Source: Tateyamaria sp. Alg231-49
Lineage (GTDB): Bacteria > Pseudomonadota > Alphaproteobacteria > Rhodobacterales > Rhodobacteraceae
DNA length: 64,000 nt
Direction of reading: 5' to 3'
Assembly: GCF_900143535.1 (NCBI RefSeq)
Contig: NZ_FRFA01000007.1
Location: forward strand, 186,001 to 250,000
The notes below the pieces were generated by a model. It was not told the DNA's origin and made no database searches. It saw only the letters and a program-made list of their open reading frames with translations. Every line of letters begins with the position of its first letter. Positions within the stretch are counted from its first letter, which is position 1. Below are positions 21,813 through 28,025 of this stretch, piece after piece. The translations under genes and the position numbers were made by a program.

Positions 21813-23387
21813 TCATTCCCATTCGATCGTGCCCGGAGGTTTGGAAGTGATGTCGTAGGTCACCCGGTTGATCCCCGGTACTTCGTTGATGATCCGCGTG
21901 GCCGTTTCACCAAGGAAATCGTGGCTGAATGGGTAGTAATCCGCCGTCATCCCATCCACAGAGGTGACCGCCCTGAGCGCGCAGGCGTAATCATATGTCC
22001 GCCCGTCGCCCATCACGCCGACTGTGCGCACTGGCAGGATCGCGACAAAAGCCTGCCAGATGTCATCATAAAGACCGTGTTTGCGGATCTGATCGATATA
22101 GACCGCGTCCGCTTCGCGCAGGATCTCCAGCTTGGGGCGCGTGATTTCACCGGGGCAGCGGATGGCGAGGCCGGGGCCGGGGAAGGGGTGTCGTCCGATA
22201 AAGCTGGCCGGAAGACCAAGCTCGCGGCCCAGTGCACGCACTTCGTCTTTGAAAAGCTCACGCAGGGGTTCGACCAGTTTCAAACCCATCTTTTCGGGCA
22301 AACCGCCAACATTGTGGTGAGATTTAATGGTGACCGATGGGCCACCGGAGAAGGAGACCGATTCGATGACGTCTGGATAGAGGGTCCCTTGAGCTAGAAA
22401 CTCTGCGCTTTCGATCTGGTCTGCGTATTTCTGGAACACGTCGATGAACAGGCGCCCAATGATTTTGCGCTTGGTTTCCGGGTCAGACACGCCATCGAGT
22501 TCACCAAGAAACAGGTCTGCCTCATTGGCGTGGATGACCGACAGGTTCATGTTGTCGCGGAACATGCCCACGACCTCAGCGGCCTCGTCCTTGCGCAGCA
22601 GGCCGTGATCCACAAAAACACAGGTGAGTTGATCGCCCACCGCCTCGTGGATCAATGCCGCAGCAACAGAACTGTCCACGCCGCCGGACAAAGCACAGAT
22701 CACGTTCTTGTCGCCGATCTGGTCCCGTATTTTCTGGATCGCTTCCTCGCGATAGGCGCCCATGGTCCAATCGCCTTTGAACCCGGCCAGACGCACGAAG
22801 TTTTCATAGAGTTTGGCGCCGCGTGGGGTGTGGTGTACTTCGGGGTGGAATTGTACCGCGTAGAAGTGCCGATTGGTGTCCGCTGTTACCGCATAAGGCG
22901 CATTCGGGGAGGTGCCATAGACCTCGAAGCCCGGTGCCAGCTTTGACACGTGATCGCCGTGGCTCATCCAGACCTGCTCGCGCCCGGTGTCAAACCACCC
23001 GTCCAGCAGATCAAGGTCACTCGCCGGGGTCACAAAGGCCCGTCCGAATTCCGCAGTGCCGCCGCCACCGGATATCTTGCCACCCAGAACCTCGCCGCCC
23101 AATTGCTGCATCATGACCTGTTGGCCATAACAGATGCCGAGGATCGGCAGGCCGAGGTCAAAGATTCCTTCAGGTGCGCGGGGCGAGCCAGGTCGGGTCA
23201 CACTGTCCGGCCCGCCGGATAAAATTATCGCACGCGGGGCCATCGCGGTCACAAAGTCCATTGTGACGTTCTGGTAGGGGTGAATTTCGCAATAGACGTT
23301 CAATTCGCGCAAGCGGCGCGCGATCAGTTGCGTCACCTGGCTGCCGAAGTCGATGATGAGGAGGCGGTCATGAATCTGGTCTGTCAT
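21813..23387 (-). CDS. guaA: GMP synthase (glutamine-hydrolysing)
   Basis: 524 aa, converts XMP to GMP. The class I amidotransferase domain has the nucleophile in LGICYGQQ near residue 87 and the histidine-glutamate pair in [10 protein letters not shown]; the ATP pyrophosphatase domain has [14 protein letters not shown]; the C-terminal dimer domain ends KPPGTIEWE as in the family. It is divergent from the MttB-like gene across a 193-base intergenic region. Confidence 0.98.
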
Positions 23388-23580: not shown

Positions 23581-25128
23581 ATGGCTGAGGCGACAGCACC
23601 GAGCAGACGCGCCCGTGGTGGTGGAGGGGCGGCACGCCGTGCGGCGCGCAGTGCCGTGTCCTTTGAGACAGCCCGTTACATCGAACGCAACATCCCAAAT
23701 TACGAAGTGCTCACCACCGAAGCCCTCGAGGTGATCGAGCATAATGCCGAGACGATTTTGGAAGAGATCGGCGTTAACTTCCCGGACAACCCTGCTGCCC
23801 TCAAGCGCTGGGCGGATGCCGGGGCGGACATTGACGGCGACCGTGTGCGCATCCCGCGTAGTCTGGCGCGTCAGCTTTGTGCCACGGCCCCCAGCAGCTA
23901 CACCCAGTACGCACGCAACCCCGAACGCAGTGTTGTCGTGGGCGGCAACAACCTTGTGCTCGCCCCGGTTTATGGCCCGCCCTTTGTACGGGATGCCGCT
24001 GGCGGTCGCCGCTATGCCACGATGGATGATTTCCGCAACTTCGTGAAGCTGGGCTACATGTCAAAGTGGTTACACCACTCCGGAGGCACGGTGTGCGAGC
24101 CGACTGACGTTGCGGTGAACAAACGCCATCTTGATATGCTGCACGCCCACATGACTTTGTCGGACAAGCCCTACATGGGCTCTGTCACCGAACCCAGCCG
24201 CGCGCAGGACTCGGTTGAAATGTCCGAGATCCTGTTCGGCAAAGAATTTGTCGCTGAAAACGCAGTCATGACCTCGCTGATCAACATCAACTCGCCGATG
24301 ACGTTTGACGATGTGATGATGGGCGCGCTTGAGGTCTATGCACAGGCCGGGCAGGGCTGCATCATTTCACCCTTTATTGTCGGTGGCGCGATGGCGCCGG
24401 TCTCCGTCGCAGGCACGTTGACGCAAGTGCTGGCCGAAGTGCTGGCTGGCATTGCCTATTCACAGCTGTGCAAACCCGGGGCACCAGTCATCTTTGGCGC
24501 GTTTGTGACGTCCATCGATATGAACTCTGGCGCGCCGACGTTTGGTACGCCCGAGGCCGCGCACATCACCTATGGCGCTGGGCAACTGGCGCGGCGGTTG
24601 GGCTTGCCCTTCCGGTCGGCTGGGTCGTTCTGTGGTTCAAAACTGCCGGACGCGCAGGCAGCTTATGAAACCGCAAACTCGCTCAACATGGGATTGTTGG
24701 CAGGCGTGAACTTTATGCTCCATTCTTGCGGCTGGCTTGAAGGGGGGCTGGTCAGCTCATACGAGAAATTCGTGATGGATGCGGATCAGCTTGGCACGCT
24801 GCATCATCTGGCAGCGGGTGTGCAAATGGATGAAAACGCGCAGGCGATGGATGCGATCCGGGAAGTTGGCCCAGGCGGGCACTATCTGGGATGTGCCCAC
24901 ACGCAGGAGAATTTCAAGACAGCGTTCTGGAAGTCGGATGTGCTGGATTACAAACCGTTCGAGACGTGGGCGGATGAGGGCGCTCGCGATACGCAGGCCT
25001 TGGCCACAGCGCGGGTTGCCAAGCTGCTCAGCGACTATCAGCAACCCGCAATGGAACCTGCAAAGCGCGAGGCGCTGGACGCCTTTGTCGCGCAAAAGAA
25101 AGAAGCGGAACCCGACAGCTTTATGTAG
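23581..25128 (+). CDS. MttB-family trimethylamine methyltransferase-like protein without pyrrolysine
   Basis: 515 aa of the MttB/COG5598 superfamily, which moves a methyl group from a quaternary or tertiary amine to a corrinoid protein. The frame is uninterrupted, with no in-frame TAG, so it belongs to the non-pyrrolysine branch (as in glycine-betaine methyltransferases). Recognisable segments are YEVLTTEALEVIEHNAETIL near the N-terminus, VYGPPFVRD and HSCGWLEGG. The basic N-terminus (PSRRARGGGGAARRAARS) is usual for the branch. GAGGGG precedes ATG 23581. No corrinoid protein or reductive activator is nearby. Confidence 0.88.
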   Translation: MAEATAPSRRARGGGGAARRAARSAVSFETARYIERNIPNYEVLTTEALEVIEHNAETILEEIGVNFPDNPAALKRWADAGADIDGDRVRIPRSLARQLCATAPSSYTQYARNPERSVVVGGNNLVLAPVYGPPFVRDAAGGRRYATMDDFRNFVKLGYMSKWLHHSGGTVCEPTDVAVNKRHLDMLHAHMTLSDKPYMGSVTEPSRAQDSVEMSEILFGKEFVAENAVMTSLININSPMTFDDVMMGALEVYAQAGQGCIISPFIVGGAMAPVSVAGTLTQVLAEVLAGIAYSQLCKPGAPVIFGAFVTSIDMNSGAPTFGTPEAAHITYGAGQLARRLGLPFRSAGSFCGSKLPDAQAAYETANSLNMGLLAGVNFMLHSCGWLEGGLVSSYEKFVMDADQLGTLHHLAAGVQMDENAQAMDAIREVGPGGHYLGCAHTQENFKTAFWKSDVLDYKPFETWADEGARDTQALATARVAKLLSDYQQPAMEPAKREALDAFVAQKKEAEPDSFM

Positions 25129-25133
25129 GCCAG

Positions 25134-25436
25134 TCAGGCGGCAGAGGCGTCAACCTGTGCTGCGCGCAAGGTGCGCCCTTCGCCAATGATGGCGATCAGA
25201 ACATCGATGTGGCGCAACAGGCTATATGACGAATCTTCGCCAAGGCGCAGCGCGTTCAACTCACCTTCGATCTCCATCAGGCGTATCAGGGCGTTTCCAT
25301 GGCTCGGCAATTGCCCATAACCCAGCAGGCGCGGCAAGTGGGCGGCGCGGCGGTAATCTTCTGCTCCGATTCGGGCGGCGCGGATCAGCAGGCGTGGGCG
25401 GTGCAGTGCGTTTAGCATCGACAGGATATCTTGCAT
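25134..25436 (-). CDS. DUF6477-family small protein
   Basis: 100 aa, mostly helical, with the recurring pattern LHRPRLLIRAARIGAEDYRR and LPRLLG that I associate with the Rhodobacterales family DUF6477. No catalytic motif or membrane segment. It ends five bases from the convergent MttB-like gene and is divergent from the DUF6456 gene, so both share the 264-base region that holds the DnaA boxes. Function unknown. Confidence 0.65.
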   Translation of the reverse strand: MQDILSMLNALHRPRLLIRAARIGAEDYRRAAHLPRLLGYGQLPSHGNALIRLMEIEGELNALRLGEDSSYSLLRHIDVLIAIIGEGRTLRAAQVDASAA

Positions 25437-25630
25437 TTTCCAGTACTCCTTGAGTGTCTGCCGGCCTGATCTGCATCACGCTGGCGCCTGTATCATTGCA
25501 CAACTTAAGCGGGTGTTGCGTGGGGTCTGGTGGCGGCGTGCGTTCGTTTAGCAACTGTTTATCATTTGGAAACAATGCTGCGTACATCGACAGATATTAA
25601 CGTACAGGCAACCAATACACTCCTAGGTTG

Positions 25631-25650
25631 TGTGGATAACTTGTGGATAA
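25631..25650 (+). promoter_or_regulatory. Two tandem perfect DnaA boxes
   Basis: TGTGGATAA (complement TTATCCACA, the strongest consensus DnaA box) occurs at 25631-25639 and again at 25642-25650, same orientation and 11 bp apart, one helical turn. They lie 51 to 70 bases upstream of the DUF6456 start, in promoter position. A CtrA-like half site TTAACGTACAG is at 25597. The arrangement suggests DnaA controls this gene; the lack of a larger AT-rich cluster argues against a replication origin. Confidence 0.65.
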
Positions 25651-25700
25651 CTACGGCATTAAGACCGTGCCACACAGACATTGAGGACGGAAAATAACGG

Positions 25701-26837
25701 ATGCAATTGAACGATGGATCTCCTCCCGTGCTTTCGGGATTGCCGACATGGGTGCCAGACGCTGCAATCCACTATCTGGCGCACACAGAGGGCGGGCTTC
25801 CGATCCGCGAAGTGGCCCGCAAATCGGGCTGCCATGCGTCTACCGTCCTACGTCAGATCCGCAGATACGAAACACGCCGCGAAGTTCCCCTGATTGACGC
25901 TGTGCTTCGTAAACTGGGTGCAGGGGTGACCAAGCGAACGTCGAAGAATGCCCAAAAGCAAATTAAGGAGGTGGATCCGATGAGGCTTGCGATCAAGGAT
26001 CAAGGCCCCGATGCAACGACACTGACGCGGGATGCGCGCCGCATCCTGCGCCGCCTCTGTGAGACGGGTGCTGTGCTGGCTGTTGCCGTAGACATGGAAA
26101 AGGCGGTCGTGGTGCGAGACGGTGCCACGGGGTCCAGCACGCGCACGGCTGTGGTGGACCGCAAAGTCGCCGAAGCCATGGCCCTGCAAGAGTGGATCAG
26201 TGCGGACGTGTCCGGGCGCATCACCCGCTACAAGATTACCGCGTCCGGCCGGACAGCTCTAGGCGAAATGATGGAGGGAGAAGATGCTGGGGCATCTGGC
26301 ATGGCCGAAGCCCCGGCGGAATTTGCCGACCAGCATCGGGTCTGGGGCGAGCGCACGATACGTGACAATGAAACCGGCCAATCGCGCAAGGTGCGCTACA
26401 ATCTGGCCGAGTCGCCGCTGACGGCTTTGGCGCGTCGACGAGACAAGAACGGCGCGGTGTTTCTTACGGATGATCTGGTCAGTGCAGGCGAACGTCTGCG
26501 CGAGGATTTCGAATTGGCTCAGATGGGGCCGCGTGTCGCTCAGAACTGGGATCGGTTTTTGACCGCAGGGAGCCGCGGCAGCTTTGCCATGGACAGTGGG
26601 GTGGGCAATGGGCCCGAGCGGGCGCGCGGCCGGGTGGTACATGCGCTGAAGGACCTTGGCCCGGGCCTGTCAGACGTTGTGTTGAGGTGCTGTTGCTATC
26701 TTGAAGGGCTTGAAGCAGCAGAAAAGAAACTGGGCTGGTCGGCGCGGTCCGGCAAGATCGTTCTTCGCATTGCGTTGATGCGCCTGAAACAACATTACGA
26801 TGAAACCACAGGACCGGGGGGCGGACTGATTGGCTGA
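25701..26837 (+). CDS. Helix-turn-helix/DUF6456 regulator, GafA-like
   Basis: 378 aa. The N-terminal third has a helix-turn-helix (GGLPIREVARKSGCHASTVLRQIRRYE, residues 31-58). The C-terminal third fits DUF6456: AQNWDRFLTAG, then ALKDLGPGLSDVVLRCCCYLEGLEAAEKKLGWSARSGK and LRIALMRLKQHY. An N-terminal HTH joined to a DUF6456-like domain is, to my recollection, the layout of GafA, the direct activator of the Rhodobacter gene transfer agent (split into GafY and GafZ in Caulobacter). I cannot confirm orthology without alignment. Preceded by two DnaA boxes and followed by two terminators. Confidence 0.7.
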   Translation: MQLNDGSPPVLSGLPTWVPDAAIHYLAHTEGGLPIREVARKSGCHASTVLRQIRRYETRREVPLIDAVLRKLGAGVTKRTSKNAQKQIKEVDPMRLAIKDQGPDATTLTRDARRILRRLCETGAVLAVAVDMEKAVVVRDGATGSSTRTAVVDRKVAEAMALQEWISADVSGRITRYKITASGRTALGEMMEGEDAGASGMAEAPAEFADQHRVWGERTIRDNETGQSRKVRYNLAESPLTALARRRDKNGAVFLTDDLVSAGERLREDFELAQMGPRVAQNWDRFLTAGSRGSFAMDSGVGNGPERARGRVVHALKDLGPGLSDVVLRCCCYLEGLEAAEKKLGWSARSGKIVLRIALMRLKQHYDETTGPGGGLIG

Positions 26838-26860
26838 TCAGCTTTTCGGTCTGGCAGAAG

Positions 26861-26896
26861 TGGCGCTGCGATCCCTACTTCGCAGCGTCATTTTTT
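26861..26896 (+). terminator. Terminator of the DUF6456 gene
   Basis: An 11-pair stem (26861-26871 with 26880-26890, one G-T pair, loop of eight) is followed by six T. Very strong. Confidence 0.9.
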
Positions 26897-27077: not shown

Positions 27078-28025
27078 ATGCGCGATTTGAAAATTCCCGA
27101 ACAGCGCCACCCCGAAAAAGCGCGCCGCCCGGACAACCCGCAGCCGAAGAAACCTGACTGGATTCGCGTCAAAGCTCCCGGCGGTGAAGGGTACGCTGAA
27201 ACCGCAAGAATCATGCGCGACAACAAACTGGTGACGGTGTGCGAAGAAGCAGGATGCCCGAATGTGGGTGAGTGCTGGTCGCAAGGCCATGCAACCATGA
27301 TGATCATGGGCGAAGTTTGCACACGGGCCTGTACCTTCTGCAATATTGCGACAGGCAAGCCGCCTGAGGACTTGGACGCTTTTGAGCCGGGTCGCGTGGC
27401 CCATGCTGTCGAAAAACTGGGCCTGAACCACGTGGTCATTACTTCTGTTGATCGTGACGACGTCGAAGACGGCGGCGCGGACCACTTTGCCCAGACCATC
27501 CGGGCCATTCGTCACCGCAGCCCCGCCACAACGATCGAGATTTTGACACCGGACTTTATCCGCTGTGACCCGTCCGTTTTGGAAGTCGTGGTCGAGGCCC
27601 GCCCGGATGTGTTCAACCACAACCTTGAAACGGTGCCCGGCCTTTATCCAGAGGTCCGCCCCGGTGCGCGCTATTTCCACTCGCTGCGGCTGTTGCAACG
27701 GGTCAAAGAGCTGGATCCATCGATGTTCACCAAATCAGGTATCATGGTTGGCCTTGGCGAAGACCGCCAGTCTGTCATTCAGGTCATGGAGGACATGCGC
27801 GCCGCCGATATCGATTTCCTCACCATTGGCCAGTACCTGCAACCAACGCCCAAGCATCACCGCGTCGACCGCTTCGTGCATCCAGACGAATTCGCCTCTT
27901 ACGAAAAAGCGGCTTACGGCAAAGGGTTCCTGATGGTTTCGGCCACGCCTTTGACCCGGTCGTCGTACCACGCGGGCGATGACTTTGCCCGATTGCGTGC
28001 GGCCCGGCAGGCTAAACTGGCCTAA
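27078..28025 (+). CDS. lipA: Lipoyl synthase
   Basis: 315 aa radical-SAM enzyme that inserts two sulfurs into octanoyl groups of E2 and GcvH proteins. The SAM cluster motif is [13 protein letters not shown]; the auxiliary cluster that donates sulfur uses [13 protein letters not shown] near residue 55, and the closing serine motif is LTRSSYHA. Full length with all ligands present. Ends eight bases before the convergent cytochrome gene. Confidence 0.98.

Follow-up and report, generated by a model that had tools for sequence, protein, structure and literature searches.

Tandem predicted DnaA boxes beside the CtrA site of gafA in Tateyamaria: a candidate link between replication control and gene transfer agent activation

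In this study, we describe the promoter of a gafA gene within the window, a 64,000-nucleotide stretch of the genome of Tateyamaria sp. Alg231-49 (contig NZ_FRFA01000007.1). GafA is the transcriptional activator of the gene transfer agents (GTAs) of Rhodobacterales. The gene (25701-26837, forward strand) is present in a single copy in the genome and encodes a 378-aa protein with an N-terminal helix-turn-helix (HTH_23, E 7e-6) that may be DnaA-like, the recognition helix GCHASTVLRQIRR and a C-terminal DUF6456 domain (E 8.5e-62). The recognition helix reads H-A-S-T, and its H, S and T are invariant across 25 homologs. A PDB profile search with this N-terminal HTH matched HTH proteins, none of them DnaA; the likeness to DnaA comes from the published HHpred match. 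The divergent neighbour is a DUF6477 gene (25134-25436, reverse strand; Pfam E 6.6e-36), which from its position appears to be the counterpart of rcc01866, the gene that adjoins R. capsulatus gafA in divergent orientation (PMC9638019). An MTTB methyltransferase gene (23581-25128) stands between it and guaA (21813-23387, reverse strand), and lipA (27078-28025, forward strand) lies on the other side of gafA. These two flanks, recognized by eye from their translations as GMP synthase and lipoyl synthase, are conserved around Rhodobacterales gafA, for which PMC6363796 describes gua1/lipA synteny. Judged by domain content, recognition helix, guaA/DUF6477/lipA synteny and the CtrA site, the gene is a genuine ortholog of R. 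capsulatus GafA, and the sequence-only reading of it as a GafA-like HTH/DUF6456 gene was correct. Just 3' of gafA, a sub-threshold Rfam match to the CcsR1 sRNA was observed (26841-26896; 27 bits, where the gathering score is 65). The gafA-like gene of phage RDJL Phi 1 has no boxes within 100 bp upstream.

The promoter alignment places a CtrA site, TTAAC-GTACAG-GCAAC, at 25597-25612 on the forward strand. Among the gafA promoters of the 110 loci compared, TTAA[CT]-N6-G[TC]AA is found at this position in 102, and the second half-site is GTAAC in nearly all relatives whereas it has decayed to GCAAC here. The half CtrA motif noticed earlier is therefore indeed a CtrA motif, but not half of one: it is a full-length site with a mutated second half. 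At R. capsulatus gafA, CtrA binding to the corresponding site has been demonstrated by EMSA and mutation (PMC6363796). Upstream of the CtrA site, the interval between the two divergent genes also contains a strongly conserved block like TGTTTATCATTTGGAAACAATG (25555-25580), which may serve the DUF6477 gene as promoter or operator.

Between the CtrA site and the boxes lies a TAGGTTG block (25624-25630, forward strand), invariant in 19 of 19 Tateyamaria and represented widely in the family as (A)GGTTG, and perhaps a core-promoter or initiator-like element. A sigma-70 consensus scan gave no match, a scan that is uninformative for this group. The DnaA box has the consensus TTWTNCACA. Two predicted DnaA boxes follow, exact copies of TGTGGATAA on the forward strand (25631-25639 and 25642-25650), equivalent to TTATCCACA on the reverse strand. 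They are set 11 bp apart from start to start and form a perfect 11-nt direct repeat of TGTGGATAACT; the array begins 70 bp and ends 50 bp before the gafA ATG at 25701; two boxes in the same orientation, 11 bp apart, in front of an HTH gene had been claimed, and this holds exactly. They are the only two copies of TGTGGATAA in the window, where 0.24 would be expected and where none of 100 shuffles contained two. In the 4.5-Mb genome the 9-mer occurs at 26 sites against 23 for the reversed control; a single box is thus not enriched and means little by itself. The tandem pair, on the other hand, is unique in the genome, about 0.002 such pairs being expected. At the loci inspected, namely the first eight exact-box sites and the dnaA locus, no origin with an oriC-like cluster of exact boxes was identified, and the only close pairs were that of gafA and one spaced 76 bp apart at another CtrA-type promoter. 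The latter pair (L007:1418-1600, on contig 15 around position 161359, some 24.6 kb ahead of the window) consists of two perfect copies of TGTGGATAA after a full CtrA site, TTAAC-TATTTC-TTAAC, and before a small gene with FSSGSAP repeats, a layout as at gafA.

It could be argued that the twin boxes are themselves the CtrA site of gafA in disguise, since they can be read as ATAAC-N6-ATAAC and both this spacing and the 65 bp to the ATG match the R. capsulatus CtrA site (PMC6363796). We consider this highly improbable, because in nearly all relatives the true CtrA site is a distinct element whose start lies 34 bp 5' of the boxes; the alignment, in which the boxes come 34 bp past the CtrA site and after AGGTTG, rules it out.

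Boxes were counted in 89 distinct promoters, over the leader that runs from the CtrA site to the start codon. TGTGNAWAA occurs 37 times in forward and never in reverse orientation, against a mean of 0.6 and a maximum of 3 in shuffles, although congeners and promoters share ancestry and these counts are not independent. At least two boxes are present in 8 of the 89 promoters and in none of the shuffles, and the excess persists outside Tateyamaria (16 against 0.5 in shuffles). At least one consensus box is found in 29 of the 89 family promoters, and many members have none. Consecutive TGKGGAWAA-like, GGRWAA-centred units are spaced by 11 bp in 11 cases and by 12 bp in 13, a helical spacing, with up to four in a row. 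Within Tateyamaria, neither box shows any change in its TGTG (CACA) core (19/19), the second box also keeping TGTGG and its terminal AA in 19 of 19, while variation falls on the A/T side, mostly at the third box position; this is the pattern expected of DnaA boxes. A protein not orthologous to GafA and an absence of the boxes from close relatives had been named among the results that would count against the idea; the gene is an ortholog, and the boxes are conserved in close relatives, with an excess also outside the genus. Moreover, within 20 congener genomes the combination of a CtrA site and a box no more than 35 bp after it occurs at 14 places, 13 of which are gafA, and at none in the reversed control. 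That the array is chance or non-functional sequence, as the lack of genome-wide enrichment of TGTGGATAA might suggest, is hardly credible against this conservation, fixed orientation and periodicity. In a Rhodobacter/Tabrizicola-like clade (L101, L104, L107, L108, L112-L115, L117), an inverted repeat like GTCCAAGGCTGGAC fills the slot after the CtrA site, and DnaA boxes are absent.

Which protein reads the array is a separate matter. The host DnaA has the canonical recognition helix GRDHTTV (GRDHTTVMHGVKRI). In actinobacteria the DnaA box is TT(G/C)TCCACA (PMC4285127). Elsewhere than in the present genome, one strong box is accompanied by weaker neighbours, and at oriC of E. coli weak DnaA sites 2 bp apart are bound cooperatively (PMC6727663). 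The N-terminus of GafA itself resembles DnaA domain IV by HHpred, and GafA acts on its own promoter (PMC9638019), so the boxes might serve autoregulation through this HTH; the Tateyamaria GTA promoter also carries conserved TTGTG/CACA elements, GGGTTGTG and CACACGTATAACTTGTG. We regard this as unlikely. The base-reading D-H-T of DnaA is replaced in GafA by a nearly invariant H-A-S (CHASTV), the same GTA promoter lacks a TGTGGATAA array, and the N-terminal 86 residues of R. capsulatus GafA bind the gafA promoter only non-specifically and are dispensable for autoregulation, according to PMC9638019. In addition, the tandem pattern recurs at 13 places over 120 family genomes (one in the control), of which four are at gafA, two before nrdR (MRCPFCGN), two at clpB and the others unassigned. 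Tateyamaria G014 has one more clpB array, likewise preceded by a CtrA site. Arrays at nrdR and clpB favour a general DNA binder such as DnaA over the HTH of GafA. The Rhodobacteraceae tandem arrays with 10-12 bp spacing were seen upstream of clpB (L160, L171, L173) and nrdR (L166, L167), and the clpB array of L160 has a full CtrA site just upstream.

Another regulator, such as an OmpR-family response regulator, GtaR or a RogA-like repressor, or else an RNA element in the leader, may use the repeats instead. Outside Tateyamaria the weak units frequently read TGGGGATAA, which makes a poor DnaA box, but they retain GGATAA, so another reader of the motif is possible. OmpR-family proteins, CtrA included, recognize 11-bp direct repeats, and ATAAC closes every unit here; in the gafA promoter of R. 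capsulatus, GtaR binds close to where transcription starts (PMC6363796); and the content of the leader slot differs by lineage. Nevertheless, the 12-bp spacing is as common as the 11-bp spacing, conservation of the C of TAAC reaches only 39% outside Tateyamaria whereas TGTG never varies within the genus, the RogA sites of Caulobacter are GGAA-N4-TTCC, and the gafA leader matches no Rfam family. We therefore consider such a reader possible but rather doubtful.

DnaA is favoured by the spacing and shared orientation of the units, the mixture of strong and weak ones, the recognition helix of the host DnaA, the differing helix of GafA and the use of arrays at nrdR and clpB. With boxes in numbers beyond chance, kept in relatives, and a canonical host DnaA, the gafA leader has, as far as sequence can tell, the features of a DnaA-regulated promoter. 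We propose, with about an even chance of being right, that the gafA promoter is activated by CtrA and followed by a DnaA operator, which most likely acts as a brake that is released when DnaA is cleared. The CtrA site would drive the promoter, and DnaA would occupy the array, cooperatively as at oriC. Abundant DnaA would obstruct RNA polymerase at initiation or early elongation, so that switching on gafA would require both active CtrA and a drop in DnaA, as at growth stop. We infer here the binding of DnaA, repression rather than activation, and clearance of DnaA as the signal; an activating role of DnaA at gafA is possible. The array is assumed to lie downstream of the transcription start, which in R. 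capsulatus gafA maps near the CtrA site by RNA-seq (PMC6363796). In Caulobacter, DnaA is cleared on entry into stationary phase through Lon and reduced translation (PMC4489657), and GTA production belongs to stationary phase (PMC6363796); a relieved brake fits this coincidence.

The sequence-only reading went further and proposed that the DnaA boxes link gene transfer to replication. For this organism that cannot apply, since the GTA structural cluster has been deleted and gafA is an orphan: neither a capsid gene nor GTA_TIM is found anywhere in the genome, while GTA_TIM is present in 18 of 20 genus genomes, truncated in one of them. A capsid protein search gave no match in this genome, its sister genome G007 or G019. 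The syntenic GTA site, between yceG and cysE, lies outside the window (L132, contig 28: 704000-716000). There, within one contig, only g1 (small terminase) and codons 1-327 of terL are left, and these run out of frame into the last part of g15; G007 has a different, in-frame terL::g15 junction, which indicates that the two losses were independent. Between this genome and G007, dN/dS of gafA is 0.08 overall, 0.22 in the N-terminal domain and 0.02 in DUF6456, and the terL remnant is still constrained as well (0.10). Since both remain constrained, the loss is probably recent, and the constraint on gafA says little about a GTA-independent role. The gafA switch is here without its known main output, although its orthology stands; where the GTA is retained, as in 17 of 20 congeners, the proposed link of the boxes to gene transfer could still operate. 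Intact CtrA half-sites were found in 9 of 15 GTA-less and 25 of 28 GTA-bearing genomes (p = 0.046, from counts made by hand and uncorrected for phylogeny), so that half-site decay may go with GTA loss, an association that is suggestive only. Of 120 family genomes, 15 have DUF6456 but no GTA_TIM or only a truncated one, and nine have neither. Orphan gafA is thus not rare, and such strains allow GafA function to be studied apart from GTA production. The Tateyamaria GTA promoters upstream of g1 (L122, L124, L125, L134-L146) share CACACGTATAACTTGTG.CAAGCTAG and an upstream GGGTTGTG-like block, often with a CtrA-like TTAAC-N6-TTAAC; this CtrA-like site is lost in the two GTA-deleted genomes.

A terL::g15 fusion in place of the GTA cluster, at the same locus, was also seen elsewhere (L123:14023-16539; L175-L181, in G086, G098, G113, G122, G135, G147 and G075). 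Its junction is codon-exact, AWVDE|xGC..DKG; seven genera read through it and an eighth ends at a contig edge. The fusion ORF (815-840 aa) is open in six of seven. The tree of the g15 part needs at least five and up to eight changes, each fusion grouping among intact GTAs, and the DNA near the junctions has no shared tract. Recurrent exact deletion, allele transfer or a selected protein may lie behind the fusion, which is unexplained and merits a study of its own.

GTA production is confined to stationary phase and to a small fraction of cells. The known inputs are CtrA and quorum sensing, but CtrA is expressed throughout growth. The growth-phase signal still missing from this picture may come from the conserved predicted DnaA array adjoining the CtrA site, a candidate that is specific and can be mutated. 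Tentatively, and with distinctly less confidence than we attach to the operator, cooperative binding of DnaA to the array may let GTA production reflect the state of replication initiation and starvation, with CtrA on and DnaA off. If true, roseobacters would have a direct connection, not described before, from the replication initiator to a gene transfer programme. No paper linking DnaA boxes to gafA was found in the literature searched, which lies mostly outside subscription journals; the parts of PMC6363796 and PMC9638019 covered here do not mention the array for gafA, and the Rhodobacter-like promoters examined lack it.

The promoter of R. capsulatus gafA (rcc01865) shares with the present one the orthologous gene, the neighbours and an upstream CtrA site, TTAAC-N6-GTAAC there, whereas here the CtrA site is half decayed and followed by the tandem DnaA-box array. 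The gafYZ genes of Caulobacter likewise encode a homologous activator and have a promoter-bound repressor, RogA, but the gene is split, the repressor site is of a different type, as given above, and no DnaA array is described in the passages covered. As in the arrays of E. coli oriC, 9-mers in one orientation, separated by 2-3 bp, combine strong with weak units; unlike those arrays, the gafA array lies in the leader of a regulator gene, has one to four units and no unwinding element, and gives no indication of an origin. The Caulobacter origin, Cori, is similar in that CtrA and DnaA sites lie close together, so that both cell-cycle proteins could oppose each other, although gafA provides a promoter rather than an origin and its boxes match the E. 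coli type perfectly, not the Caulobacter G box.
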